From Phycisphaerae bacterium (GTDB taxonomy: Bacteria; Planctomycetota; Phycisphaerae; UBA1845): 42,460 nt of DNA. Shown here one piece after another: positions 8,803 to 34,568 of this stretch; position 1 is the first letter of the stretch, and every line of letters starts with the position of its first letter. The DNA lies in contig JAUIEW010000011.1 in assembly GCA_030429365.1 (NCBI GenBank), forward strand, positions 1-42,460. The letters run 5' to 3'. The position numbers and the translations under genes were made by a program. The notes beneath the pieces were generated by a model that was given only the letters and a program-made list of their open reading frames with translations, was not told where the DNA came from and did not search any database.

Positions 8803-9233
8803 TGGGGAATTTTACGTCATTGGCATCCGAGAACAGAATGTAAACATTTTTCAATCTGACTTTCAAAAGCCAGATGCGCACGATTGCAACTGCAATTTGA
8901 GGTTGCGCGCCCCGGATCGCGCTCGTGCAAATTTCTCGCCGTGTTAAAGGGTTGGTTTTGCAAATCGTGTGGATCTTTGCGCTGCGCGACGATGCTGGTT
9001 GGCGTTTCTCGATCAACCGGATTGCTCGCTTCACTCTGTTGCGGCAGCGCAATCAATCGGCCAAACTCGAATCGCCATGCAATCTGCGCGCTTCCTCACT
9101 CGACATCTTCGCCACCGCATAGAAACGGCGGGGCACAACGGGGTTCCGATAATTTGAGGCCCTCACTTCCCGAAAACACTTGTTCTGGACGCAAAAAATC
9201 TTCGTGGCGGCCGACGAAGTCGAACAAGACGGT
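8803..9233. other. Intergenic stretch without a recognised gene
   Basis: This about 430-bp stretch has only short overlapping frames on both strands. None has a ribosome site, signal peptide or family resemblance. It is more AT-rich at its left end (around 8800-8860) than the coding regions. I see no repeat, tRNA or mobile-element end in it. Confidence 0.4.
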
Positions 9234-9262
9234 TTCATTGCGGGTGACTGCAACGCTATAAT
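9234..9262 (+). promoter_or_regulatory. Likely promoter of the 479-aa GH16 gene
   Basis: A perfect TATAAT (9257-9262) follows a weak -35 (TTCATT, 9234-9239) at 17 bp. Transcription would start near 9269, about 60 nt before the ATG at 9330. The perfect -10 is unusual for this window. Confidence 0.5.
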
Positions 9263-9266
9263 CCAT

Positions 9267-9302
9267 GCCCCATCGCGGCTCCAATGCGTTCGACGATGGG
9301 GC
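9267..9302 (+). promoter_or_regulatory. Stem-loop at the 5' end of the GH16 mRNA
   Basis: GCCCCATCG (9267-9275) pairs perfectly with CGATGGGGC (9294-9302) around an 18-nt loop. The stem begins at the predicted transcription start and ends 13 nt before the AGGAG ribosome site at 9316. It could protect the 5' end or take part in control. Confidence 0.45.
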
Positions 9303-9329
9303 TTGAATCGCGAACAGGAGATCTGGCTG

Positions 9330-10769
9330 ATGGCTTTTCGCTCGTGGACACTCATGGCGGTACTCGTCGTTGCGAATAGCGCCGTCGATGCGTTCGGGCA
9401 ATGCCAGTTGGCCAACCCCAGTTTCGAGTTGGCGGACAACGGCCCGCCAACCTTCGCCGAGTGGAACCAGTTTGGCATTGTGGGCGGAACCGGAAGCCCC
9501 GTCGTCCATGGAAGCCGGTCAGCCGCCGTCAAAGGACCAAACCTTGGCGGGTGGGATATTTCAGCGTTCTGGCAGAGTCTCGATACCGCACCCGGTGAAC
9601 GATGGGTGGTCTCCGGGCGGGTGCTGCATTCGTCTTTGGACGTCTTAAACGGCAACGCAAAAGGTGTTGTCAATGTCGAATGGCGCGATGCCGGCGGCAA
9701 CTTAATCGACTTCGAATCGCATGACGTACTGCTGCCGACTGACTCGACCGATACGTGGCACGAGTTCTCGTTTACAACGCAGTTTGCACCGGCAGGGTCA
9801 GCCGCTGCCCGCCTCCTGCTGGCGTTTTTACAGAGTCCGGCGCAGGAAACCGGAACTGTTTTCTATGATTTGATCCAGTTCGATCGTGCAGGCCCGCCGA
9901 CGCGCGACGAGCAGCAATGGAGTGATTTCCCCGGCGGACGTGTCATCGATTTTGCAGGGCACGATTGGCGCGTTAAAGGTCCAGGTGTGTTTGGCCCCGG
10001 CCCGAGTTTCTTCGGCGACAGCGCGAACAATGTCTGGGTTGATGCTCAGGGCCAACTGCACCTGACGATCAAGAACATCGGCGGTACGTGGCAGAGCACC
10101 GAAGTGACACTCGAAGATCCGCTCGGTTATGGCGATTACATCTTCACGACCGTCGGGCAACTCGACCTGATGCCAGCGAACGTTGTGCTGGGGCTATTCC
10201 TTTGGCAATACCCGGTGTGTTACGATCCAGGCAATCCCTGGAATCTGCACAACGAAATCGATGTGGAGATCAGTCGGTGGGGAAATCCCGCAGATGACGT
10301 GGCTCAATTCGTCGTTCAGCCGTACTACGTCCCCAGCAACATCTCGCGATTTGATATCACTTATTCGAAAGGCGAAATGGTCAGTTATGCACTGCGCTGG
10401 CTGCCCGATCGCATCGAAGCGCGGGCCTGGCGCGGCGGACCGTCAGATGAATCGCCAGCAACGCTGATCGCGTCATGGGTGAACTCGGGGGCTTACCTTC
10501 CTCGGCCCGAACAGCCGCGCGTCCACATCAACCTTTGGCAGTTGGATGGGCCGCCCAACGACGGTCAGGATCAGGAAGTCGTGTTGAACACGTTTCGATT
10601 CGTGCCCATCTGCGTGGATCTGTTGGCCGACAAACGCGCCCATTGCTTCTTGGCGTGCATGGACGGCCCCTTCTCAATCCAACCATCGACGTGCGGCGAA
10701 TTCGACACCGACAACGATGGCGACATCGACCTCGTTGACTTTGCCGACCAACTCAACTCACTGCGCTAG
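9330..10769 (+). CDS. GH16-type glycoside hydrolase with N-terminal CBM-like module
   Basis: A 479-aa secreted protein. The start at ATG 9330 has AGGAG 9 nt upstream and a signal peptide ending near A-V-D-A-F-G. Residues about 24-190 form a CBM4/9-like jelly roll (opening with L-A-N-P-S-F-E-L). Residues about 205-425 are a GH16-like domain with N-E309-I-D311-V-E313, the nucleophile/helper/acid-base triad. The spacing ExDxE is the straight-strand form seen in lichenases and relatives, unlike the ExDxxE form in the other three GH16 proteins here. The C-terminus has one clear acidic loop (D-N-D-G-D-I-D-L-V-D-F-A); the first half of the tag is degenerate. The substrate is probably a beta-glucan, but this subgroup is poorly defined. 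Confidence 0.82.
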   Translation: MAFRSWTLMAVLVVANSAVDAFGQCQLANPSFELADNGPPTFAEWNQFGIVGGTGSPVVHGSRSAAVKGPNLGGWDISAFWQSLDTAPGERWVVSGRVLHSSLDVLNGNAKGVVNVEWRDAGGNLIDFESHDVLLPTDSTDTWHEFSFTTQFAPAGSAAARLLLAFLQSPAQETGTVFYDLIQFDRAGPPTRDEQQWSDFPGGRVIDFAGHDWRVKGPGVFGPGPSFFGDSANNVWVDAQGQLHLTIKNIGGTWQSTEVTLEDPLGYGDYIFTTVGQLDLMPANVVLGLFLWQYPVCYDPGNPWNLHNEIDVEISRWGNPADDVAQFVVQPYYVPSNISRFDITYSKGEMVSYALRWLPDRIEARAWRGGPSDESPATLIASWVNSGAYLPRPEQPRVHINLWQLDGPPNDGQDQEVVLNTFRFVPICVDLLADKRAHCFLACMDGPFSIQPSTCGEFDTDNDGDIDLVDFADQLNSLR

Positions 10770-16826: not shown

Positions 16827-17909
16827 ATGAGTTCAGTTCGTCAAATCGCTCGAGAGGCCGGCGTGTCAATCACGACGGTGTCGCGCGCACTCAACAACGA
16901 TCGCAACGTCAGCGAAAAGACACGCGAAATCGTCCTCGCCATCGCCAACAAGACCGGTTACATCTCGCGCGTCGGCAGGAAATCCACCACCAACATCGCC
17001 ATCACCTACACCGGGCGCGAGATGATCGCGTCCGCTTTTGACTTCGCTGTATTGGAAGGCATTTCAGAGGCCGTCGATGAACACCATCTCGACCTCATGA
17101 TTCTCAAACCGCAGCGCGACAAGTCATCAGAGGAAACCTACTCGCAGTACTTCATGCGCAAGGGCGTGCGCGGCGTCATCCTGCGAACGTCGGTTGAATC
17201 CATGCACGTGTGCGAGCAGATCGTCGCAGAAGGTTTTCCAGCGATCGTGCTTAGCGAGCGATTCGACAACGAAGCCGTCAGCTACATCGATTGCATTTCG
17301 GGCGAGGAAACCACGCGGGCGGTTGACTATCTGTTTTCATTGGGACATCGGCGCATCGCGTTCGGCATGAACACCATTCCCGACTGCGATCACTTCGACC
17401 GCCTCGAAGGATACAAGGCATCGCTCAAGGCGCACGACGTTCCGATCGATCAAAGCCTGATCTTCAGGAACCCGGCTAACCTCATCGGCGGCGCCACGAT
17501 CTTGAAGATGGCGATGACGATGGCCAACCCACCGACCGCGATGGTTCTTGCCGACCCGCAACTGGCGATTGGCGCGATCAACAAAGCACATGAACTCGGC
17601 ATTCAGATTCCGCACGACTTGTCGATCGTGGGGTTTGATGATGGTGATGCAAGGTTTTCCGTGTATCCGACCATGACGGCAGTGTGCCAAGACGCCCGAG
17701 CCCTTGGTCGGGAAGCAACCAGGGCACTCAATGGGCTCTTGGGTGGCGACACAGGACAGCGCATTCGACAATCGGTGTCGTGCTTTCTTGAGATTCACCA
17801 TTCCACCGCACCGCCCAAACACGCCGCTGAAAAGAATTGGCCCAAACAAGAAAACAATCGTCAGAGCGATGTAGCCAAAGCTGAAGAACGGAATCGCGCA
17901 GCCGGTTAG
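16827..17909 (+). CDS. LacI-family transcriptional regulator
   Basis: A 360-aa regulator. The helix-turn-helix is at residues 1-48 (V-R-Q-I-A-R-E-A-G-V-S-I-T-T-V-S-R-A-L-N). The ligand-binding domain is of the periplasmic-binding-protein type (Y-L-F-S-L-G-H-R-R-I-A-F, then D-L-S-I-V-G-F-D-D). It most likely senses an imported oligosaccharide and controls this beta-glucan locus. The stretch after G-Y-I is only S-R-V-G-R-K-S-T-T-N before I-A-I, so the usual hinge motif (P-N-x-x-A-R-x-L) is missing. A charged tail of about 30 residues ends the protein. The start ATG lies about 40 nt after the predicted transcription start. Confidence 0.93.
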   Translation: MSSVRQIAREAGVSITTVSRALNNDRNVSEKTREIVLAIANKTGYISRVGRKSTTNIAITYTGREMIASAFDFAVLEGISEAVDEHHLDLMILKPQRDKSSEETYSQYFMRKGVRGVILRTSVESMHVCEQIVAEGFPAIVLSERFDNEAVSYIDCISGEETTRAVDYLFSLGHRRIAFGMNTIPDCDHFDRLEGYKASLKAHDVPIDQSLIFRNPANLIGGATILKMAMTMANPPTAMVLADPQLAIGAINKAHELGIQIPHDLSIVGFDDGDARFSVYPTMTAVCQDARALGREATRALNGLLGGDTGQRIRQSVSCFLEIHHSTAPPKHAAEKNWPKQENNRQSDVAKAEERNRAAG

Positions 17910-17937
17910 GCATTGCTGCACATTGGAGAGTCGTTTC

Positions 17938-19047
17938 ATGAATCGCCAAAGAAGAATGAGAACTCGTCGGGTGCAGGAACCTGATCAACGGGCGTTCACC
18001 CTCGTCGAATTGTTGGTTGTTGTTTCGATCATTGCACTCTTGATATCCATCCTCCTGCCCTCGCTGCGTAGCGCGCGCGACCAAGCCAAACTCGCAACGT
18101 GCCTTGCACACATGCGCGGAACCGGTCAATCGGTCAGCATGTTCGCGCAGGATCACAATGGTCGCTTTCAGATCACGACGGACGAAGTTGGTCTTGATCT
18201 CGCCGACGCATCGCGCGACCGCTACGAATACGGAATCGGCGATGAGTTGCTGTCCTGGCCCGTTGCAATCGCGCAAGGCGCCGGGATGAAGTTCAGGCAG
18301 AACTGGGATTGGGGCGTTCGGGCTACCGATTACCAGGATGCACTGACCCAGAAGGAACTCATCCAGGACGAATTGGAACTCGTGGTCTGTCCTTCCGATC
18401 GCGTCAAACTCGCGACACCCTACTACCCGCAGAATCTTCCCAGCGGTGACGGTTTGAAAGGGACCGGCGATCCCGACAACGCCCGGGCAAGCCAAACGGG
18501 CATGTCTTACTGGGGACGGCTCAGTTACGCCGTCAACGAAGACATCACCGGCGCTGAAGTCGGTGTGAGCCAGGGCAACCCGGCGTGCTGGCGGGCGGTT
18601 TCTGTTGGATCGGGCGCATGGTTTGAATGCGTCGGCGAAAAGCTCTACCCCGGGACGCATCCGTGTCGCCAGAGCGGAACCGGAACACGACTGCAAGGAA
18701 ACCTCGACAAGATTTTCGGACCTGGCGAGGTCGGATTGATCTTCGAGGCGGGACGCGACTCACAAGATCAGAATATTGCGAACACCGGATTCTCAAACTT
18801 GGTTCTCAGCGCGCAGGCAAGCGGTCCCTATCTGGGAGACGCGGTCAACGCCAACGAGGCTGACGGCGGACTCGCAGCAGACCGCATTCCGCGCAAGCGA
18901 CACCCACGCGGAAAATTGAACGTTCTATTTGGCGACCTGCATGGCGGTACAGTTCTCCCGGTCAAATTCAACAGCGATAACGAACCGATCGAGTTTTCAC
19001 CGCGCGTTCGCGTTTCGCCGTACCAACCAAGATCGACAGTGAACTGA
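17938..19047 (+). CDS. Pseudopilin-like protein in the beta-glucan locus
   Basis: A 369-aa protein with a prepilin-type leader: R-R-V-Q-E-P-D-Q-R, then A-F-T-L-V-E-L-L-V-V-V-S-I-I-A-L-L-I-S-I. The start ATG 17938 has GGAGAG upstream. The remainder is a large soluble domain with several Cys residues (A-T-C-L-A-H, V-V-C-P-S-D) and an end resembling H-X9-DG (R-K-R-H-P-R-G-K-L-N-V-L-F-G-D-L-H). It shares the architecture of the pseudopilin at 2940-3698 but is about 115 residues longer. It sits between the regulator (28 nt) and a GH16 gene (61 nt), suggesting co-transcription and a role in secreting or assembling the degradative proteins. The role is inference. Confidence 0.85.
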   Translation: MNRQRRMRTRRVQEPDQRAFTLVELLVVVSIIALLISILLPSLRSARDQAKLATCLAHMRGTGQSVSMFAQDHNGRFQITTDEVGLDLADASRDRYEYGIGDELLSWPVAIAQGAGMKFRQNWDWGVRATDYQDALTQKELIQDELELVVCPSDRVKLATPYYPQNLPSGDGLKGTGDPDNARASQTGMSYWGRLSYAVNEDITGAEVGVSQGNPACWRAVSVGSGAWFECVGEKLYPGTHPCRQSGTGTRLQGNLDKIFGPGEVGLIFEAGRDSQDQNIANTGFSNLVLSAQASGPYLGDAVNANEADGGLAADRIPRKRHPRGKLNVLFGDLHGGTVLPVKFNSDNEPIEFSPRVRVSPYQPRSTVN

Positions 19048-19108: not shown

Positions 19109-21421
19109 ATGAATTCTGACGCAGGCCCACAACCCAATGCCGTCGCGCAACCTCGCCAGAACCCTCGTGGCGCAGCGATCGCGTTTGCATGCATGGCTGT
19201 TGCGTCCATTCAATGCTTCTTATTCGCTGCGCAAGTACGCGCCGACGTGACCAATCCCGGTTTCGAGTCGGGAAGCTTTGGGAGTTGGCAGACGTTCGGG
19301 GCCCACGTTGCTGTCGCTCCCATCACACCGCACAACGGTAGCTACGTGGCTGCGATTTCCGGCGAAAACTCCGGCGCCACCAACTACACCGGCTTCTTTC
19401 AGAACATTCCCACAACCGAAGGCATCGACTGGGTCGCATCGGCTTGGGTGCGTCACAACACGAACACCGCGCTGACCGGAACGGCCAACCAGTGCATGCT
19501 CAAGATTGAGTTCTACCGCGTTGCCAACGGTGCGTACGGCACGCCCGACATGCTTTCCGAGCACAGCAAACTCATTCTCGACGGATCCACGCCTCAGAAT
19601 CTGTGGACCGAACACATGCTGCCAGCAACCGCGCCGGCTGACGCGGTCGAAGCGCGCGTCACGGTTCTGTTTATTCAGCACAACGATGACCCTGGTTCTG
19701 TCGTGGTCGACGACATGTCGATGATCCCCAACACGCCGACAAGCGGCGCCTGGGATTTGATCTGGGGTGATGAATTTGATGAACCCACCGTCGATGCGAC
19801 CAAGTGGCGCGTGGAAGACATTCATCAGATCAAAAACAACGAGCTTCAATACTACGCGCCCGACGATGTGTACCAGACGACGGTAGACGGTCGAAGCGTG
19901 CTGACGTTGCGCAGCCAGCAACGGGTTATCTCCGGGTTTGACAATCAGGGCGGGTTTGGAACGTGGAACTATTCGTCCGGATTGGTCGACACCAAAGATC
20001 GTTTCGCCACAACGTATGGCCGAATCGAAGTCGGCGCTCAACTACCGAGCGACAAGGGCATGTGGCCCGCACACTGGGGACTGGCGTCCGACGGCGGTTG
20101 GCCTCCAGAGATCGACATCATGGAAGCCATCGGACAGGTTCCCAACGTGGTGCACATGAGTCATCACTGGGGACCGCTCGGTCCGAATTGGGAACCGCCA
20201 TGGGAGATCGGCCAGACCGTGACCGGAACGTACAACGGCCCCGATTTCACTGCGGGTTTTCATGAATTCGCAGTCGAGTGGTGGCCCGGACAGATTGATT
20301 GGTTTGTCGACGGCGTGCTCCGACATTCGAGCACCAACGCGAACGTGCCGAATGAGCCGTTCTTCTGGATACTCAACACCGCCGTCGGCGGCGATTGGCC
20401 CGGTCCGCCCGACGCGACGACGACCTTTCCGCAGCATCACTACATCGACTACGTGCGCGTGTACGTCCCAAATGATCCCGGCGACGCGCTGGTTGATTTG
20501 ATCGATACGACCCGGACGATCGGCGCAATCGATGGCTTTATTTCGACCGGCGAATACCAGTTGTCGACAACTGGCATGAACAACGGCGCTGGCGACATCA
20601 TCGGTGCAACATCAACACTGCACTTTGATTCTGACAGTGATGGAAATTTCGTTCTCGGATTCAACAATACCGCGGCTTGGCCAACCAACCCGACGCGCGG
20701 TGTGATCGTGTATGTCGATTCGATCCCAGGTGGGTTCGCATCGACGTACGAGCTGAAGGATCAAAGCGATCCATCGCGCCGATTGATTTCCGGCAAGGGA
20801 TCAAACGGACAGCGTGGCGATCTATTCTTCCCGCTCGGAGTTCGAGCCGACTACGCAATCTGTTTGTTTCCAACACTCGTTGGCGTTTACCGAATCGACA
20901 AAACCCAACACGAGTTTATTCAAGGCGCATTTCTAAATGCCCCCACTGATATCCTCGGTGGTGATGAAGTCAGCTATGCCGGCTCGGATGGCGAACGCGA
21001 ACTGCGCATCCGGTTGGCGCATCTGTCATCAAAGCCGTCATCAACACTTCGCGTGTTTGCCAATGTGTTCGACACAACATCCGGCGAACGGTTCAACGAA
21101 TTCGTCGGAGCCTCGGCGGGTAACCCATGGGATGGCGGCAACATTCCTGCCGGTCAATCAACCGTGATGAAGCCGGGTGACTTTTTGTGTCTGCAGGCCG
21201 CCCCCGGGTTTTACGACGCCGATGCGGATGGCGATGTCGACGACGCTGATTTTTCGATGTTGGCTGCCTGCTTTGCGGGCCCGACCGATCCACCTTTGCA
21301 GGGGGGCAGCCTGACACCTGAGGACTGCCTGTTGATTTTCGATGTTGGATCAGACGGTCACATCGATCTGAAGGACTTCAAGGAATTCCAACTTCGGTTC
21401 GGCGGTGACGAATCGAGTTAG
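19109..21421 (+). CDS. GH16 endo-beta-glucanase (laminarinase-like), multi-domain
   Basis: A 770-aa exported enzyme. A long polar N-terminus precedes the hydrophobic signal (A-I-A-F-A-C-M-A-V-A-S-I). Residues about 47-205 form a CBM4/9-like module (V-T-N-P-G-F-E-S-G). Residues about 210-455 are GH16: W-G-D-E-F-D-E-P at its start, catalytic E334-I-D336-I-M-E339 (ExDxxE form of laminarinases) and Y-I-D-Y-V-R-V-Y at its end. Residues about 470-700 are a domain I cannot name, probably beta-rich, with D-G-F-I-S-T-G-E-Y near its start. The C-terminal tag has D-A-D-G-D-V-D-D-A-D and G-S-D-G-H-I-D-L-K-D-F-K-E-F-Q. The probable substrate is beta-1,3-glucan. Confidence 0.9.
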   Translation: MNSDAGPQPNAVAQPRQNPRGAAIAFACMAVASIQCFLFAAQVRADVTNPGFESGSFGSWQTFGAHVAVAPITPHNGSYVAAISGENSGATNYTGFFQNIPTTEGIDWVASAWVRHNTNTALTGTANQCMLKIEFYRVANGAYGTPDMLSEHSKLILDGSTPQNLWTEHMLPATAPADAVEARVTVLFIQHNDDPGSVVVDDMSMIPNTPTSGAWDLIWGDEFDEPTVDATKWRVEDIHQIKNNELQYYAPDDVYQTTVDGRSVLTLRSQQRVISGFDNQGGFGTWNYSSGLVDTKDRFATTYGRIEVGAQLPSDKGMWPAHWGLASDGGWPPEIDIMEAIGQVPNVVHMSHHWGPLGPNWEPPWEIGQTVTGTYNGPDFTAGFHEFAVEWWPGQIDWFVDGVLRHSSTNANVPNEPFFWILNTAVGGDWPGPPDATTTFPQHHYIDYVRVYVPNDPGDALVDLIDTTRTIGAIDGFISTGEYQLSTTGMNNGAGDIIGATSTLHFDSDSDGNFVLGFNNTAAWPTNPTRGVIVYVDSIPGGFASTYELKDQSDPSRRLISGKGSNGQRGDLFFPLGVRADYAICLFPTLVGVYRIDKTQHEFIQGAFLNAPTDILGGDEVSYAGSDGERELRIRLAHLSSKPSSTLRVFANVFDTTSGERFNEFVGASAGNPWDGGNIPAGQSTVMKPGDFLCLQAAPGFYDADADGDVDDADFSMLAACFAGPTDPPLQGGSLTPEDCLLIFDVGSDGHIDLKDFKEFQLRFGGDESS

Positions 21422-21588: not shown

Positions 21589-24500
21589 ATGAAGTTGGTA
21601 GGAGGATTGTGGAAGCGGCAATCGGTCGTCCAAATTCTGTGCGTCGGTTGGATTGCGGCAACCTGTTCGGCAGCGCCGTTGATCTTGGAAGAAGATCTCG
21701 ATTCGGTCACGGAGACCGGCTCGTATGAATTCAGTGGATTCGGTTTTGTCAGCAATGTGCCCTGGGACGACGGCGTCACGGGCGAAAATGTCTTCGCAGG
21801 CACAGAAGGCAATGCCCGTTTTGGATTGGTGACAGCGGAAGGTGTCGCGACAGGTGGCGTGGGCGGTTCTGGTGCAGGTCGCATCGAAGTCGCAAACGTT
21901 GGCTTTAGCGCGATCTTCGAAGACTTCCTGAATATCACCGCAACAGGCGGCGGGATTTTCGTCTCGTCCAACGGTGCGGCTGGCTTCACCGAAAACTGGG
22001 ACGACGGAATCGCCGATGAAGGCGCGTTTTTCGGAACAACTGTTGATGCGGTCCTCGGTGTCGATGGAGGCGCTTCGGCTCAAGGCGTGAACACCGGTGG
22101 AAACCCGGGACAAGCCGGCGAGCTGGATGTCGAGGGCGTCATCCTCAACAGCGGTGAGTGGTTTGCCGGCATGTCGATCCAATCCGGTGCGTTGGAAGGG
22201 GCCAATCCGTTTGTCAACGGCGGGTTCGACGAAGGCGGCGGATCGTTTGACGGCTGGACGGTCTTCGGCGCAAACAACTTCCTCGAAACACTCCCTGCCC
22301 CGGTGAACGGCACGCACATCTTCAAGACATTCGGTGGATTCTCCGGCTTCAATTCGTCGGGTGTCTATCAAGACTTAATCGGGCAACCCGGACAGACCTG
22401 GGAACTCCGCGTCTTTACCCGCAACGAAACCATCCTCAACGGCGGACTCGACGGCATCACCGGCGCAAACCAAAACGAATTCATCATGAAGATCGAATTC
22501 TATGATGGCGTCGATTTTGAAACGCCGTTGGCAGAAGACGAATTGGTCATGGTTGACAACAGCACCCCGACCAACGTCTGGATTCAGAATACGCTTCAGT
22601 TTACGGCACCGGCTGGCACCGCGGTCGCCCGCGCCGTGCTTTCCTTCGATCAGCCGGCCAACGAAGGCGGCGCCGGTTTCGCCGACGCGGTGACCTTTGA
22701 AGTTGTCAGTGGTCCCGCACAATCACTCGTTGACCTCTCACAAATCAGCTTGACGGCTGACATCCGCGGCGCGGCGGACATTGGCGATGGTGAAGTTCTT
22801 GGCGATGTTCAACTTCGCCTGGAAGACCCAAACCAAAATCGCCTGATCGCATCGGGTAGTGCCGACACGATTTTCCAATCGTTTGGCGGATTGCTCAGCA
22901 CGTTTGTCGAAGCCAACACGAACGGAATCCCGACGCCGGGCATCTTCGATTTGAACGCATCGTCGTACACGGTTGTGGTTGCGTTTGACAACGAAGGAAC
23001 CACGCCTTGGGGAACGGGCGGTACGCTGACCGTCGACAACATCGTTCTCACGAACAGTGACTCAACTGGCAGCGCTTGGTATGCCGGTTTGTTTTGGGAC
23101 GGATTGACCACGACACTCGACGCCGCCTGCGCTCCATCGCAGTACTTTGTGTCGGCTGACGTTTTTGGTGATACGAATGGCGGCGACTATGTCGTGCGTG
23201 TCGAAGGCAATCGCGTCACCCAAGCCGGTCTCGATGAAGACTTCACCGATGCAACAGCCATCGGCGGCGGTAACTTCCTCAACACCAACAGCGTGGAGTT
23301 CCAATACGTACCGGGCTGGGACACTGGTTTGATGGGTGAAGCTGCGTTCGGTGGTTACACCAACGGCTCATTCTGCGAAGACTTCCCCCCATTCTTCTTC
23401 TGTGGAACCACCGGTTTCATCGCCCGCGCCCAAACATCGGGCGGTGACCCAGACGAGTATGGCCAGTTGAAGGTTGAAAACCTGGTGATCGGTGCTGGTG
23501 GAAGTTGGAGCGGTGGATTGATCTGGGCAAACCAGGGTCTTGCTTCAAGCGATCTTTCACAAGTCACGTTGGAGGCAACGGTCCGCGGTATCGCAGCCCC
23601 GGCAGAAAACGTCGGCCCGATTGAACTTCGCATCGAAGACGCCCAACTCGACCGTCTTTACACGACCATCATTCCGACCGGTGGCTGGGATACGATCGGC
23701 GGAACGTTGGATACGTTTATCGAAGCCGGTGCGGCTGGCGGTGGCGGCGACGGCACGTTCAATCTTGATTCGCCAACCTACACGGTCGTTGTTGCATTCC
23801 CCGACGCGCCGGAATCCACATGGGGCACGGGCGGTCGCATCGATGTCGACAACCTGTACCTCACACCGGTCGATGTGGTCACACCGATTGGTGAAGTTGC
23901 GTTCACCAATACCGCGGACGGAGCCACGTTCCAAGCAAACGGCGGTTACCTGAACGAAGGTACAAGCACGTTTGTCGATGGCGACTTCGACGAGGACTTT
24001 GAAGGCGCGTTCATCGCCACGACCGGTATCGTGTTTGCTTCCGTGGTGAATCCCACCGCCGGCGACATCGACAACTGGGATGAAGGCCTGGACAATGAGC
24101 ACGCATTCTTCGGTCAGTACGGCGGCGCTTTCCTCAACCCAACCGGAACCGTTAGCGCCGGTGTTTGCGAAACATGTGGCGTCGATAGTTCGAAGGCCGT
24201 TGTGCTCGATGTGTTCAATGTAAACATCGGTGCGGGCACCTGGTACGCGGGCCTGACTTGGCCGGACCAGATTCTCAGGCTCGACGGAAACCTCGATGAC
24301 ATTCGACTTCGTGCGCGCGTACGTGCGATCGCGGATGATCCGGGCGAAACAACCGGCATCATGACGGTTCGTCTCGAAGATCCCGATATCGATTTCCTCG
24401 CGGTCGATGTCCCCGCCGACGGAACCTGGCAAACGATTGATGTTGCACTTTCGGATCCATCGGTTGTCCAAGGCGGCGTCGGAAACAGCGACGGATTCAT

Positions 24501-24906
24501 CAATCAAAATGCGCCGTCGTATAGCTTCGCAGTGGTTCTGCTTGGTGGAGGTGACGGAACCCTTGGAACCGGCGTCACCGTTCAGGTGGACGAGTTGTTC
24601 CTCACGCGCATCGGTTCACGATTCCAGGATGCCGACAGCTACACGGTGACAGCCACATTCGAAAACGAGTTGGCCACCTGGGGCCTCGATGGTGCGCTGA
24701 ATGTTGACAACGTGATTCTTTCGGCGACTGGTAACACCGATGGCGACTCCGATTCCGACCTGAGCGACTTCGCGGCGTTCCAGCGATGCTTCTCCGACGG
24801 CGCGGTGACCGCTGGATGCGAATGTGCCGACTTGACCGGAGACGGCATGGTGACCGTTGAAGATTTTGAAATCTTCGAGCGGTTCCTTGATGGGCCGGCT
24901 CAGTAG
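21589..24906 (+). CDS. 1105-aa secreted repeat protein with inserted CBM-like module
   Basis: ATG 21589 has AAGGAG 6 nt upstream, and a signal peptide ends near A-T-C-S-A-A. The mature protein is built from about three long repeats plus a partial one at the front. Each repeat has W-D-x-G-x-x-x-E-x-A-F-x-G, a W-Y-A-G-L-x-W-like block, R-L-E-D-P and S-Y-T-V-V-V-A-F followed by W-G-T-G-G. Signature positions are near residues 55, 132, 583 and 826. Residues about 196-375 hold a CBM4/9-like module (F-V-N-G-G-F-D-E-G-G-G) that interrupts the first full repeat. The C-terminus has D-G-D-S-D-S-D-L-S-D-F-A-A-F-Q and L-T-G-D-G-M-V-T-V-E-D-F. No catalytic motif was recognised. It may be a glycan-binding surface protein. 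I do not recognise the repeat family. Confidence 0.8.
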   Translation: MKLVGGLWKRQSVVQILCVGWIAATCSAAPLILEEDLDSVTETGSYEFSGFGFVSNVPWDDGVTGENVFAGTEGNARFGLVTAEGVATGGVGGSGAGRIEVANVGFSAIFEDFLNITATGGGIFVSSNGAAGFTENWDDGIADEGAFFGTTVDAVLGVDGGASAQGVNTGGNPGQAGELDVEGVILNSGEWFAGMSIQSGALEGANPFVNGGFDEGGGSFDGWTVFGANNFLETLPAPVNGTHIFKTFGGFSGFNSSGVYQDLIGQPGQTWELRVFTRNETILNGGLDGITGANQNEFIMKIEFYDGVDFETPLAEDELVMVDNSTPTNVWIQNTLQFTAPAGTAVARAVLSFDQPANEGGAGFADAVTFEVVSGPAQSLVDLSQISLTADIRGAADIGDGEVLGDVQLRLEDPNQNRLIASGSADTIFQSFGGLLSTFVEANTNGIPTPGIFDLNASSYTVVVAFDNEGTTPWGTGGTLTVDNIVLTNSDSTGSAWYAGLFWDGLTTTLDAACAPSQYFVSADVFGDTNGGDYVVRVEGNRVTQAGLDEDFTDATAIGGGNFLNTNSVEFQYVPGWDTGLMGEAAFGGYTNGSFCEDFPPFFFCGTTGFIARAQTSGGDPDEYGQLKVENLVIGAGGSWSGGLIWANQGLASSDLSQVTLEATVRGIAAPAENVGPIELRIEDAQLDRLYTTIIPTGGWDTIGGTLDTFIEAGAAGGGGDGTFNLDSPTYTVVVAFPDAPESTWGTGGRIDVDNLYLTPVDVVTPIGEVAFTNTADGATFQANGGYLNEGTSTFVDGDFDEDFEGAFIATTGIVFASVVNPTAGDIDNWDEGLDNEHAFFGQYGGAFLNPTGTVSAGVCETCGVDSSKAVVLDVFNVNIGAGTWYAGLTWPDQILRLDGNLDDIRLRARVRAIADDPGETTGIMTVRLEDPDIDFLAVDVPADGTWQTIDVALSDPSVVQGGVGNSDGFINQNAPSYSFAVVLLGGGDGTLGTGVTVQVDELFLTRIGSRFQDADSYTVTATFENELATWGLDGALNVDNVILSATGNTDGDSDSDLSDFAAFQRCFSDGAVTAGCECADLTGDGMVTVEDFEIFERFLDGPAQ

Positions 24907-27607: not shown

Positions 27608-27943
27608 GCCGCCTCAAAATGTGAATGGCCGCGTCGCAGAAGGATGCCTTCGCCTGATTCGAAACGGCTTCCAATAGATATCTTGTGCGCGGACTGAATT
27701 TGAGATTGCCCGTATCTACGGAGAACCGCCGGCGATGTCCGAGCGAAAAACCACTCGCGGAACATGGGCACAACAGCTTGCTGCAAAAGGACTTACAACT
27801 TCTTGGAACGCATGCATTTTTGCTGAAGACCACCTGATCTTGTTTAGCTGATGAGATGTTTATTTTCGATTCACGTTGTGTGCTCACACCGCGCTCGCCC
27901 GTTGGGCAAAGCGATCGAAGCCAACATGGAGGGCCACCAACCA
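27608..27943. other. Leader and intergenic region of the 1186-aa GH16 gene
   Basis: There is no gene in these 336 bp. An in-frame ATG at 27851 would extend the GH16 protein by 31 residues, but those residues do not form a signal peptide. No convincing -35/-10 pair or palindrome was found. Confidence 0.4.
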
Positions 27944-30900
27944 ATGTTCACTCTTAAGTCTACTGCCAGATTAACTGCCATTCTCGCCAGCACATTCTTG
28001 GCGTCCGCCGCCTCTGGACAAACGCTGGTGTGGTCCGAGGAGTTCGACGGACCGACCATCGACCATTCAACGTGGACTTACAATGTTGGAGGCAGCGGGT
28101 TTGGCAATGGCGAACTGCAGTACTACACCGCACGTCCGGAGAACATTCGCATCGACGCAGGCAGTTTGGTCATCGAAGCCCGTCGAGAAGACTACCTCGG
28201 CGACAAAGCGTTCACCTCGTCAAGACTGATCACCAACGGGCGCTTTGCATTCAAATATGGAACAGTCGAGGCACGCATCAAACTGCCAAACGTCGACAAC
28301 GGATTGTGGCCAGCACTTTGGATCATGGGTTCAAACTTCGGCGCGATCAATTGGCCCGCGTGCGGCGAAGTCGACATTATGGAGTTCGGTCGCAAAGACG
28401 GATTCGAAGCCGGTGTGGTCAACCGGCGCGTCGTGTCGGCTGCCCACTGGGAATTCGACGGCGAACATGCGCTGAATCACACCTTCACCGACCGCCCAGT
28501 TGACCTCCATCTTGACTATCACCTGTTCAAGATGGAATGGACGCCCGATTACATCCGGACCTATGTTGACAATGATCTGTTCTGGACCATCGACATCAGC
28601 GACCCGGTCAACGATCAACTCACCGAATTCCACGACCCGATGTTTTTGCTTACGAACGTGGCTGTCGGCGGTTGGAACTTCATCGAAATCACCGACCCGA
28701 ACTTGATCACGGCCAGTTTCCCAGCCCGCATGTATATCGACTACATCCGTCTCTACGACAATGGTGACACGGAACTTTTCTACGGCGAAGACAATGAAGA
28801 GTCCGGTGTCTTCGGCGTGTTCACCGAAACAACACCAGTCGACAACGGCGTCATTTACGAAACCGATGCATCATTGTTTCTGTGGAACAACCTCACCGAA
28901 GTCGCGGACACGGCATACGAAGGCAGCGACGTTTGGAGCATGACCGCAGCACCGGGCGATTGGTGGGGCATGGGCGTCTTGTCCACACAGTTCGATCGCA
29001 ACCTCAAGAATTACTCCGACGGACACATGCACATCCACATGAAAACGACGAGCACGGAGCCATTCAAGATCGGGCTCAAGAGTGCAACGTCGGGCGAAAG
29101 CTGGGTAACGTTTGAAGATGGCGTGACGACATACGGCTTGGTGCGCGATGGCAATTGGCACGAGGTGATCATTCCGCTCAACAACTTCCTCAACATCGAT
29201 TTCAACACCGTCAGCCAGCTGTTCATGATTGCTGGTGATCCGCCGGCAGCCCCGGTTGAGTTTGCGATTGACAATATCTACTGGACGGAAAGCGTCGAGC
29301 GCACAACACCGGAAAACGGAAGCTTCGGCATCTTCACCGAGGATCCTGCCCACAAGACGGCTGGCGATTATCAACTTGGCGTCGATGGCGAATTCTACAT
29401 CTGGGCGGACACGCTATTGGAGGGAACGCAGTCGCCGTATGAAGGCACGTCAAGTCTTTCGCTGACTTCAGCACCGGGACAAATCTGGTTCGGCGCAGCA
29501 TTCACGCCCACGATCAAATACAACCTCTCGGCGTTCCGTTTTCCCGAAAGCAGATTGCACCTCGCGCTGAAAACCAGTTCGACGACGACGTTCCGATTGG
29601 GCATGCGCAGTGGAAACGTTGATGACATCGGTCAGAAGTGGATCGATTTTGCCAATGGAAGCGATCCATACGGTTTCGTCCGCGACGGGAACTGGCACGT
29701 GATCGAAATCCCGATGACCGATTTCACCGATTCGGTTGACCTGACCGAAGTCAGCATGCTCCTCCAACTGCTGGGCGTGACCGGACCGATCTCCGACATC
29801 GAGATCGACGACGTTTGTCTGCTTGGCGGAGGCGATGCGCTGGCGATTGGCGCGGGCAAGCCCGAAGCCGTGGCTGGCGACGACCAGGTCTTGGTGCTAC
29901 CGACCAACAGCACCGTTCTCGATGGTTCGCTGAGCACCGACGACGGCGTGATCACCGATTTTGCATGGGAACAAGTCAGCGGCCCATCGACGGCAACGCT
30001 GAGCGGCGAGACGACCGCGATCCTGAACGTTTCAAATCTTGTTCACGGCGTTTACGTATTCAAGTTAACGGTGACCGATGACAACGCCCTGACCGACTCC
30101 GATTCGGTGACCGTTACAGTCGCAACACCCGCACCGACAGCCGACGCCGGTCCAGACCAAGAAGTCGAACTGCCCTCCAACAGCGTCGTTTTGACGGGCT
30201 CAGGTTCAGACGTTGACGGCACGATCGTCTCATATGCCTGGACGCAAGTCAGCGGGCCTGCCACAGCGACGTTGACTGACGAAGACACAACCACCGCAAC
30301 CGCAAGCGATTTGTATGTCGGCACGTACGTCTTTGAATTGACGGTGACGGACAACGATCTGTTGACCGGAAGCGACCAGGTGACCGTCGTCGTCACCAAT
30401 CCGCCTCAGAACATCGCGCTAAACAAACCGGCCACCGCGTCCTCATCGTCCGTCAGCGAAATGATCGCCAACGGCGGATTTGAATTGGGGGCGGGCGTTG
30501 ACGCGGACAATTGGACCCTGCTCGAGTTCCCAGCCGGTAGCTCGGTTGCGATCGCGGACCGCGCGGGAACAGTTCCCAACAGCGGGTCATGGCATCTTTC
30601 GCTTAACGTGGTCGGTGCAGCCAACGGTGGACCGGCGGCTGAGGCCCAACAGTTGACACAGACGGGATCGGTGATTCCGGGCGAGTCCTACACGCTGGAA
30701 GCACAGATACGGCGTGTCGGCGCGTTTGGTCCCGGTGTGGTGTCGCAGATTGCCATCCAATGGCTCGACAGCGATGCGAGTCATGGCGGCGGCGTGAAGG
30801 GTTCAACCGGTTTCCAGGGTATCGAAGGCGCACTGACTGAAAACTACGCAACGTTTGGTTTCGCCGGAGTCATCGCACCTGCCGGCGCAGACGCCGCGCT

Positions 30901-31504
30901 GATTCAGGTTCGGTTGGCCGGCGGTGCGATTGCCGGATCATCGGGTGAAATCGCTTGCGACGACTTGACGTTGTCCTCGGCGGGCGGCCCACAAGGTCCG
31001 GACCTTGCCGTTGATGGTGATGACGGAACAAGCTGGGTCAGTGCGGCTGGCGATCCCCAATGGATCGAAATCGATCTGGGCGCCACGTACGAAATGAACC
31101 AGGTTGTTTTGGATTGGGCCGATGCATCGGCACTCGAATACGACATCGACGTTTCGGATGACGGTGTCAACTGGTCAACGGTTTATTCGAACCCCAACGG
31201 ACTGGGCGGTGTCGAATCGTTCCCGATTTCAGCGATCGGCAGCTACATCCGCCTGTACTCACACACCGGCAATACCGCCAACGGTTGTTCACTCAACGAA
31301 TTTGAAGTCTATGGCGTTCTACAGCCGGGCGACATTGACGACGACGGAGATGTGGACCTTGACGACTTGGCGCTATTGGTTGGTTGCCTGACCGGACCGG
31401 CTGTCGAAGTCATGCCGGGTTGCTTTGCGGCTGACCTGGATCTCAGCGCGACGGTGGATCTTCACGACTTTGCGAAGTTCCAAGCCGCGTTCACAGGACC
31501 TTAG
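27944..31504 (+). CDS. Giant multi-modular GH16 laminarinase-like enzyme
   Basis: A 1186-aa enzyme. Start ATG 27944 is chosen because GGAGGG (27928-27933) lies upstream and a clean signal peptide follows. Domain order: GH16 at about 22-280 with catalytic E142-V-D144-I-M-E147; two tandem beta-rich modules of about 165 residues (about 290-640; G-V-F-G-V-F-T-E and G-S-F-G-I-F-T-E openings, R-D-G-N-W-H in both); two PKD-like domains (about 641-822); then an F5/8-type (discoidin) module interrupted by a CBM4/9-like module at about 840-1014; then the EF-hand-like tag (D-I-D-D-D-G-D-V-D-L-D-D and D-L-H-D-F-A-K-F-Q). It probably cuts beta-1,3-glucan at the cell surface. Confidence 0.92.
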   Translation: MFTLKSTARLTAILASTFLASAASGQTLVWSEEFDGPTIDHSTWTYNVGGSGFGNGELQYYTARPENIRIDAGSLVIEARREDYLGDKAFTSSRLITNGRFAFKYGTVEARIKLPNVDNGLWPALWIMGSNFGAINWPACGEVDIMEFGRKDGFEAGVVNRRVVSAAHWEFDGEHALNHTFTDRPVDLHLDYHLFKMEWTPDYIRTYVDNDLFWTIDISDPVNDQLTEFHDPMFLLTNVAVGGWNFIEITDPNLITASFPARMYIDYIRLYDNGDTELFYGEDNEESGVFGVFTETTPVDNGVIYETDASLFLWNNLTEVADTAYEGSDVWSMTAAPGDWWGMGVLSTQFDRNLKNYSDGHMHIHMKTTSTEPFKIGLKSATSGESWVTFEDGVTTYGLVRDGNWHEVIIPLNNFLNIDFNTVSQLFMIAGDPPAAPVEFAIDNIYWTESVERTTPENGSFGIFTEDPAHKTAGDYQLGVDGEFYIWADTLLEGTQSPYEGTSSLSLTSAPGQIWFGAAFTPTIKYNLSAFRFPESRLHLALKTSSTTTFRLGMRSGNVDDIGQKWIDFANGSDPYGFVRDGNWHVIEIPMTDFTDSVDLTEVSMLLQLLGVTGPISDIEIDDVCLLGGGDALAIGAGKPEAVAGDDQVLVLPTNSTVLDGSLSTDDGVITDFAWEQVSGPSTATLSGETTAILNVSNLVHGVYVFKLTVTDDNALTDSDSVTVTVATPAPTADAGPDQEVELPSNSVVLTGSGSDVDGTIVSYAWTQVSGPATATLTDEDTTTATASDLYVGTYVFELTVTDNDLLTGSDQVTVVVTNPPQNIALNKPATASSSSVSEMIANGGFELGAGVDADNWTLLEFPAGSSVAIADRAGTVPNSGSWHLSLNVVGAANGGPAAEAQQLTQTGSVIPGESYTLEAQIRRVGAFGPGVVSQIAIQWLDSDASHGGGVKGSTGFQGIEGALTENYATFGFAGVIAPAGADAALIQVRLAGGAIAGSSGEIACDDLTLSSAGGPQGPDLAVDGDDGTSWVSAAGDPQWIEIDLGATYEMNQVVLDWADASALEYDIDVSDDGVNWSTVYSNPNGLGGVESFPISAIGSYIRLYSHTGNTANGCSLNEFEVYGVLQPGDIDDDGDVDLDDLALLVGCLTGPAVEVMPGCFAADLDLSATVDLHDFAKFQAAFTGP

Positions 31505-32483: not shown

Positions 32484-33977
32484 CTAGCGTGCCCGTTCGA
32501 ATTCGCAAAAGTCAAAGAGATCCACGTCGTTGTCGCCATCGAATTTGCACGCGTTGAATTGTGCCGTCGAGCAGCCGAGCGGCGCATTGAAAATGTTCGG
32601 ACCCGCGAGGCATGTCGTGAAAATCGCGTGATCTGCAACATCGACATCGCCATCCATGTCGAGATCGGCTGGACTGAGAAGTTCAAAATCGATGTAACCG
32701 AAGTTGTATTCGCCGTTTCCGCCACCGTTGGCAAAGCGCATGATCTGCTCACCGGCATCGAGTTGGGCGATTGCGTACACACTGGTCCAGTTCTGCCAGC
32801 CGCCCGTCCCCGGCGCCGTGACGGTTCCGGTCTTGTTGACGCCGTCAAATTCAAGATGAAAATCGCCGCCGGCAAGTTGCGACGACACTCGGAACTCAAG
32901 TCGATACGTGCCAGCCGTCGCGACATCAACGGTGTACTCCATCCACTCATTGGCGCACATCCACCCAACGTTGAAACCGCCTTCGCTGCTGGCTTCGATA
33001 TCAACGCTTTCGTCAGGCCGATACACGCCGCCGTTGTTGGACGCATCGCAGTCGAAATACGCAACCCCCGCACCACCATTGTCAAACGCCTCGGCTTCGA
33101 TTCGCCCGGGAATCGGAATCGCCGTTCCTGTGAACGGTGACTGCGAGCCGGGCGCCAGGTCATATACGCGGACCCAATCAACCTGCAGCGTTGTGGTCGC
33201 GGGCGAAAAGACACTTGAACCATCGGGCGGGCCTGGGTATCCCCCGCCGACAGCAACGTTTAGCAGAAGATGAAACGGAACGTCGAACGGAGCCCGGTTG
33301 TTCTGCGGTGCGGCGGTGCTGTACCAACTGTTGCTGATCTCGGTGTGGTAGAGGATGTCATCGACGTACCACCGGATGGCGTCCGGTTCCCAGTCAACGC
33401 GATACGTGTGGAAATCGGCGGAGAAGTCCGTACCGGGAGAATAGAAATCCACGGCGAACGTGTTTTCCGGCCAAGGCCCGCCAAAATGTAGCGCCCCACC
33501 GATGATCTGGGCGTCGTTCTTGGTTTCCATGATGTCGATTTCGCCGCTCGCCGCCCAACCGCCATACGGCGAGTTCGTCGGCAACATCCAAAATGCCGGC
33601 CAAACACCTTGCGTTTTGGGCATTTTCATGCGGGCTTCAAACCGTCCGTAGAGAAAGTCCTGATTGTTGCGCGTGCGAATGCGCGCGGATGTGTAGTCGA
33701 AGCCAAGATAGTCTTCTTCCAAAGCAACGATGTTCAGCATGCCGCCGGACACTGAAATATTGACCGGCCGATTGGTGTAGTATTGCAGCTCGCCGTTTCC
33801 CCAACCCGGTATCCCGTATGCATCACCATTGCCAATCATGTACTCCCAATCGGACGTGTTGAGGCTGCTGCCGTCGAATTCATCAGACCAAACCAAAGTA
33901 GCTTGACCGAATGAGTTGGCGGACGAGAAGAGCAGTCCGACAAATAGCGCGACACCGATACGTTTGGTTCTGGTCAA
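32484..33977 (-). CDS. GH16 laminarinase-like enzyme with CBM6-like module
   Basis: A 497-aa secreted enzyme. The start is read as TTG 33977: AAGGAG lies 6 nt upstream and the next residues (T-R-T-K-R-I-G-V-A-L-F-V-G-L-L-F) are a good signal peptide. A GTG at 34004 would put the ribosome site inside the gene. GH16 spans residues about 27-280, with W-S-D-E-F-D-G at its start and catalytic E146-I-D148-I-M-E151. Residues about 290-430 are CBM6-like (G-R-I-E-A-E-A-F-D, E-Y-T-V-D-V-A-T-A-G-T-Y). The tag is D-L-D-M-D-G-D-V-D-V-A-D and D-G-D-N-D-V-D-L-F-D-F-C-E-F. It likely cleaves beta-1,3-glucan. Confidence 0.92.
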   Translation of the reverse strand: MTRTKRIGVALFVGLLFSSANSFGQATLVWSDEFDGSSLNTSDWEYMIGNGDAYGIPGWGNGELQYYTNRPVNISVSGGMLNIVALEEDYLGFDYTSARIRTRNNQDFLYGRFEARMKMPKTQGVWPAFWMLPTNSPYGGWAASGEIDIMETKNDAQIIGGALHFGGPWPENTFAVDFYSPGTDFSADFHTYRVDWEPDAIRWYVDDILYHTEISNSWYSTAAPQNNRAPFDVPFHLLLNVAVGGGYPGPPDGSSVFSPATTTLQVDWVRVYDLAPGSQSPFTGTAIPIPGRIEAEAFDNGGAGVAYFDCDASNNGGVYRPDESVDIEASSEGGFNVGWMCANEWMEYTVDVATAGTYRLEFRVSSQLAGGDFHLEFDGVNKTGTVTAPGTGGWQNWTSVYAIAQLDAGEQIMRFANGGGNGEYNFGYIDFELLSPADLDMDGDVDVADHAIFTTCLAGPNIFNAPLGCSTAQFNACKFDGDNDVDLFDFCEFERAR

Positions 33978-34568
33978 GGGAGGCTCCTTCGAATTGTTCA
34001 ACACCCGCGTTACGAACGGGTGCGCTTGGAGACGTTGATTGTAGTCGAACCGTGCATCGGAATCGAGAAGTTTAAGCGCCGCCTGCAGCGTATATGGGTG
34101 CCAAACAGCTGAATAAAACGGTCAATAATAACAGCAGTTGTATACCCATGCGGGCATGCACCGATTGGCAACCTTGAAACCACCGTCCGGTGCGGCAACA
34201 GTTTCAAGAACGCGTCATTTGATGCCATTGATCGCTTTCGAAATTCTGGCTTCAACCATACATCGAATTGGCGAACGACCGGCTGAACTCACGACGAATT
34301 CAGCGGCATGAGTTTGAAGCCAATTCACCGAAAAGCGATTGCGTCGCGAAGACTGAACGTGGTCGGCGAAATCAGACCGGACGAATTCGTGTCGGTCGCT
34401 CGAACTTCGCGATACGTACGAACCGATGACCATGTACGCTCTTCCATCCGACACGACGAGCGAATCAACGTCCATAAAATGCCCGTAAACAAGCCATTTC
34501 AGCGGTATCTGCAGCCAGCAACAAGTCATCGTGGCAATCGATTGAATCGGTGTGGTAGAATCGTTCTG
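33978..34568. promoter_or_regulatory. Divergent 591-bp region with a perfect TGAAAC repeat
   Basis: No gene is supported here. CTTGAAAC (34173-34180) and GTTTCAAG (34201-34208) are perfect 8-bp arms flanking a small CACCG/CGGTG hairpin. TACAAT on the minus strand (34043-34038) is a possible -10 for the GH16 gene. Short frames in 34308-34560 have no ribosome site or recognisable product. Confidence 0.45.

Follow-up and report, generated by a model that had tools for sequence, protein, structure and literature searches.

A secreted planctomycete protein in which a predicted jelly-roll unit appears to be split into four by three homologous units, with a likely part in beta-glucan capture

Repeat proteins are usually viewed as beads on a string. 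The window analysed here, a stretch of 42,460 nucleotides, holds a gene that raises the question of whether repeated domains are always arranged in this way, and of what a protein built otherwise would do. A sequence-only reading had described about three repeats of more than 200 residues in the product of this gene, the first of them split by a carbohydrate-binding module (CBM). The repeats and their signatures proved to be real, but the count is four units, and in place of three repeats with one interruption we find three units that are very probably nested inside the fourth.

The gene and the start of its product are as follows:

21589..24906, + strand: whole gene, coding for a secreted 1105-aa protein of probably nested architecture (open reading frame, Shine-Dalgarno sequence, 12 further full-length homologs sharing the layout)
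21589..21675, + strand: signal-peptide-like N-terminus (residues 1-29; basic start, hydrophobic core, small residues before AAP)

The ATG start of the open reading frame (21589-24906) is preceded by a strong Shine-Dalgarno sequence, GGAAAGGAG, and AF2 places a helix of low confidence at residues 4-25, in the signal-peptide-like region. Signatures of the W-D-x-G type recur along the chain at residues 137 (WDDGIADEGAFFG), 577 (WDTGLMGEAAFGG) and 830 (WDEGLDNEHAFFG), together with tryptophan blocks at 191 (WFAGM), 497 and 885 (WYAGL) and 640 (WSGGL), RLEDP at 410 and 928, RIEDA at 681, and WGTGG at 474 and 745.

These signatures belong to four copies of a unit of about 209 positions, three of them complete (R1, R2 and R3) and one (D0) split into four. 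Smith-Waterman scores for the pairs R1/R2, R1/R3 and R2/R3 lie 23-31 SD over shuffles. A BLASTP self-comparison of the protein gave no off-diagonal match, so that profile methods were needed to reveal the repeats, and discontinuous copies of this kind escape simple repeat or domain calling. The complete units are:

21913..22203, + strand: guest unit R1, first part (residues 109-205; profile 2-93; hmmsearch profile)
22729..23061, + strand: guest unit R1, second part (residues 381-491; profile 101-207; profile match)
23227..23877, + strand: guest unit R2, complete (residues 547-763; profile match; single-unit model with pLDDT 89.2 and pTM 0.88)
23983..24618, + strand: guest unit R3, complete (residues 799-1010; profile match; model region 796-1008 against CBM4-2, Z 14.4)

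When R1 (109-491), R2 (547-763) and R3 (799-1010) were removed from the region between the signal peptide and the C-terminal tag, residues 31-108, 492-546, 764-798 and 1011-1048 remained, which correspond to the fragments of the outer unit:

21679..21912, + strand: outer unit D0, fragment 1 (R0, residues 31-108; profile 2-80; hmmsearch)
23062..23226, + strand: outer unit D0, fragment 2 (x, residues 492-546; profile 82-132; profile match)
23878..23982, + strand: outer unit D0, fragment 3 (y, residues 764-798; profile ~133-159; 8-22 bits, 13/13 homologs)
24619..24732, + strand: outer unit D0, fragment 4 (z, residues 1011-1048; profile 173-207; profile match)

A profile built from only the R2 and R3 units of 13 homologs tiles D0 at about 2-80, 82-132, 133-159 and 173-207 in 13/13 homologs, fragments x and y being weak when taken singly (7-40 bits). 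With a whole-repeat profile, the D0 pieces of the relative L021 fall at positions 2-80, 81-132, 137-160 and 176-210 of 212, and pieces 1, 2 and 4 of the window protein are matched at equal borders. The natural order of the fragments was the best of the 24 permutations in 13/13 homologs, with a rotation always as the runner-up, and when the eight fragments are grouped in all 4140 possible ways, the nested grouping is the only one in which each unit has every strand exactly once. Under a simple null that places four fragments at random, they would tile in order and without overlap with a probability of about 9e-6, a figure that counts once since the homologs are not independent. Furthermore, the joined D0 consensus matches the unit consensus throughout its length, and the fragments retain the unit motifs WDDGIxGE, WYAGL, YxLR, FQSxGGxL, YTVTxxF and WGTxGxLxVDN. 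R1 is the nearest unit for three of the four fragments; for x it is R2, by a small margin. Together, the tiling, the order and the unique grouping lead to the layout D0a-R1a-CBM-R1b-D0b-R2-D0c-R3-D0d-tag. The units are interleaved (D0 R1 D0 R2 D0 R3 D0) and do not follow each other head to tail as tandem repeats would, the host pieces make up one complete domain, the guests are complete, and the homologs keep the layout. On these alignments we hold the nested architecture to be highly probable.

Structural predictions are compatible with this arrangement. AF2 modelling of the entire protein gave a mean pLDDT of 75.4 and a pTM of just 0.42; in this model the strands of the D0 fragments are confident, with pLDDT 88-91 at residues 520-539, 770-779 and 1020-1039, and they share profile columns with the strands of R1 and R2. 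Strands also run unbroken over the borders at 533-550 (x to R2) and 749-775 (R2 to y), as would be expected where a guest replaces a hairpin turn. The sequence-only reading had proposed structure prediction of one repeat as a check, and the AF2 model of R2 alone resembles CBM11 (Foldseek E 2.8e-6; Z 12.2), CBM4-2 (VIA-align Z 14.2, 154 residues, 2.8 A) and CBM22 (Z 13.0), with 7zkq, a complex I assembly factor, also among its fold matches; the fold-match list of the full-length model is dominated by the module inserted in R1 and says nothing firm about D0. The unit is thus predicted to be a beta-sandwich jelly roll of the CBM4/CBM11/CBM22 type, and the four D0 fragments would assemble in space into one such fold.

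The unit in the window protein matched no Pfam or NCBIfam family, the repeat region gave no convincing Pfam/NCBIfam match in Pfam scans of the 13 homologs, and no convincing match to the unit came up among PDB sequences, with the 13-sequence homolog profile as well. The earlier suggestion of a new glycan-binding or structural family, against which a clear match to a known Pfam module would have spoken, therefore stands for the sequence family and falls for the fold: novelty is confined to the sequence family and the architecture, and the fold is already known.

A first search returned one full-length relative, L021 ('Planctomycetota bacterium isolate PLA2'), which is 46% identical. Among 114 genomes of the order, profile searches detected the unit in 13, where it belonged without exception to this protein of about 1100 residues, whether whole, broken or cut by a contig end; three genomes (G468, G644 and G715) have two gene copies each. 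No single-unit or un-nested relatives were present among these 114 genomes, the other orders in the class sample (397 genomes, profile search) lacked the unit, and in a phylum sample of 392 genomes a profile search found it only in the window's own genome. Two short matches from a search across the phylum (L023 and L024, 32-33% over about 75 aa) were judged to be due to chance, as was a weak profile match in G526 (E 4.7e-4) that vanished with a larger profile. The homolog alignment is shallow, comprising 13 sequences from one order.

Shared by all of these sequences, the layout was kept while they drifted to 35-45% identity. In a tree of 52 units, D0 (support 100/99) and R1 (98/95) were each monophyletic, and a 97/89 branch separated D0 and R1 from R2 and R3; the joined D0 thus behaves as a single paralogue, and its grouping implies that the nesting is older than the split of the sampled families. 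Four homologs (L064, L065, L066 and L068) have no EDFDTV-like first strand where R3 begins and carry a comparable stretch after the final strand of R3. L065 gives a clear score for this stretch, L066 a moderate one, and L064 and L068 weak ones. We regard this as a lead, from the alignments, that guest R3 may be circularly permuted in these four homologs. At two other loci the nested gene is either split into two overlapping frames (L074:4464-7585) or truncated and carrying an in-frame TAA (L072:8900-10912), through decay or assembly error.

R1 is itself interrupted. Its profile match breaks at about 93/101, and residues ~206-380 separate the WFAGM block from the DLSQISLTA block, which are contiguous in R2 and R3. 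The proposal that a CBM4/9-like unit splits the first repeat is thus borne out:

22204..22728, + strand: CBM16/CBM4_9-like module within R1 (residues 206-380; Pfam, PDB and fold matches, kinship to the GH16 CBM)

Pfam CBM_4_9 is matched by this module in 2/13 homologs (best E 2.7e-5) and not in the window copy, and a 13-sequence profile matched a CBM16 in the PDB at E 0.04. The fold matches of its predicted model, 2zey (TMt 0.76-0.77, Z 15.0, 142 residues) and 8xmz (Z 15.6), place it among the jelly rolls and liken it to CBM16 and to a porphyran-binding CBM (Z 15.0-15.6). The CBM at the N-terminus of the GH16 encoded next to the nested gene (GH16a) has itself a CBM_4_9 match (E 6.9e-5) that just misses the curated cut-off. 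Profile comparison puts this CBM and the nested module in one family (E 1.8e-33 for the window pair, to 1.6e-49 elsewhere), of which every homolog contains a member, and no other finding says as much about the ligand as this kinship does. Elsewhere in the window, the N-terminal part of a protein of unknown family (9180-10769) matches the same nested-CBM profile (E 1.9e-20).

The chain ends in a further putative module:

24733..24903, + strand: dockerin-like C-terminal tag (residues 1049-1105; two D-x-D-x-D/G motifs; Pfam Dockerin_1, below cut-off)

The Dockerin_1 score of the window protein is 13.9 bits against a cut-off of 22.9, and with an E limit of 1, matches appeared in 9/13 homologs, the strongest at 7.1e-4. 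About 40 places in the genome bear dockerin-like tags; one cohesin-like domain exceeds the Pfam cut-off (G000 C267:7014-7385, L101), and no multi-cohesin scaffold was seen in the genome. With some 40 tags and a single cohesin-like domain, a cellulosome-like dock is possible and is not supported.

The surroundings of the gene point to beta-glucan use. The window encodes a GH3 enzyme, an ABC sugar transporter, LacI, a prepilin-like protein, a GH16 with a CBM, the nested gene, a GH1, two more GH16 enzymes and PEP-CTERM proteins, and the nearest neighbours are:

16827..19047, + strand: LacI-type regulator and prepilin-like protein, conserved upstream neighbours (locus comparison)
19109..21421, + strand: GH16 gene (EIDIME) with an N-terminal CBM of the nested-CBM family (motif, profile)

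LacI lies upstream in 13/14 homologous loci and a pseudopilin in 12/14, while a GH16 is within reach in 7/14 and a GH3 in 5/14, neither of these enzymes being present within the stretch read at some loci (L065, L066, L068 and L070). All three GH16 enzymes of the window contain E[IV]DIME, which we take to be a motif associated with laminarinase-type GH16. These three (19109-21421, 27851-31504 and 32484-34004) carry differing accessory modules (CBM16-like; PKD and F5/8 type C; CBM6). The prepilin-like protein (17923-19047), which adjoins LacI and has an N-methylation motif, may belong to the same glucan-capture system as the nested gene. The glycan-binding role suggested earlier is compatible with both the predicted jelly-roll fold and this locus, and we lean towards a secreted, multivalent beta-glucan-binding protein acting with GH16 enzymes.

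Other explanations have to be weighed against this reading. The chain might consist of plain tandem repeats plus decayed partial copies, with R0, x, y and z independent of each other and forming no joint fold. The shortness and weak individual scores of x and y, and the slight differences in nearest unit among the fragments, would fit such decay. It is nonetheless very improbable, given that the fragments are ordered, never overlap and have constant borders in 13/13 homologs, which are 35-82% identical to the window protein, that they keep the unit motifs and high AF2 confidence, and that the sole complete grouping of 4140 is the nested one.

If the nested layout is right, the protein might still be mainly structural, as part of a surface layer, a stalk or an adhesin, and not a glucan binder. 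Jelly rolls are versatile and include non-glycan roles, no neighbour apart from LacI is as constant as the pseudopilin gene, and glucanases are not nearby at some loci. Set against these points are the CBM of the neighbouring GH16's family in every homolog and the GH16, GH3 and GH1 enzymes and ABC sugar transporter near the nested gene in most loci, and we consider a mainly structural protein unlikely, yet the most serious of the competing accounts. The conserved acidic residues of each unit (WDxGxxxE, LRxED) might also suggest an enzyme domain, such as a beta-sandwich lyase or hydrolase, with catalytic copies. No enzyme family was matched, however, the best fold matches are binding modules, and acidic positions common to all four units look more like structural or metal sites, so that an enzymatic unit is scarcely credible.

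Our best explanation of the whole therefore remains a nested, five-module secreted protein, likely for multivalent beta-glucan capture, to which we give a probability of about 0.7. Such a protein would have arisen by repeated domain insertion, in which a jelly-roll unit of the CBM4/CBM11/CBM22 type, D0, was split into four and each gap filled by a complete homologous unit: R1 after about strand 6 of D0, R2 in the turn after its LRxED strand, and R3 in the loop before its YTVxxxF strand. An unrelated CBM16/CBM4_9-like module would have entered another loop, that of R1, and the chain would end in the dockerin-like tag. The models lead us to expect that the four D0 fragments form one jelly roll together, and if they do, the guests would protrude from the loops of D0 and not follow each other on a string. 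We think it reasonably likely that this is a case of recursive self-nesting, in which a host carries three self-homologs in different loops, one copy holds a foreign CBM, the third guest is seemingly circularly permuted in some homologs, and the host closes only after the full chain is made, giving a branched, multivalent device for glucan capture. Outside the cell, possibly at its surface, it would capture beta-1,3-type glucan multivalently for the GH16, GH3 and GH1 enzymes and the ABC transporter encoded by the locus.

In this protein the folding of a domain broken up by three full domains could be studied on a natural example, and it bears on the origin of self-insertion and on whether branched display of binding modules aids the capture of soluble glucan. 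With it comes an unnamed module family, tied to beta-glucan use, in a little-studied planctomycete group. A partial literature search, which leaves priority unproven, found no described example of a host with three guests alike in kind and size.

With the CBM4, CBM11 and CBM22 modules, such as CBM4-2 of the R. marinus xylanase and CBM11 of C. thermocellum, the unit shares its predicted fold, secretion and glycan context, but it is only 10-17% identical to them, has no Pfam match and exceeds them in length by about 50 residues. CBMs ordinarily follow one another in tandem, whereas D0 harbours three units of its own kind. The R1 module is like CBM16 and Pfam CBM_4_9 in fold, and weakly in sequence, but sits in a jelly-roll loop in all homologs and not at a chain end. 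Surface glycan-binding proteins (SGBP) of Bacteroidetes polysaccharide utilisation loci have a role similar to the one proposed, the non-catalytic extracellular capture of glycan encoded beside glycoside hydrolases; their loci use SusCD, while that of the nested gene has LacI, a pseudopilin and an ABC transporter. Domain insertion occurs in 20% of multidomain proteins, and both nesting, which reaches six levels in the RNA polymerase of cyanobacteria, and hosts of several guests are known (PMC13114784). As in the A1-B-A2 and nested-insertion proteins described there, a guest here interrupts a host. However, 65.8% of insertions join different homology groups and guests are smaller than hosts (median 115 versus 199 residues) (PMC13114784); unlike these typical insertions, the guests of D0 are homologous to their host and equal to it in size and kind.
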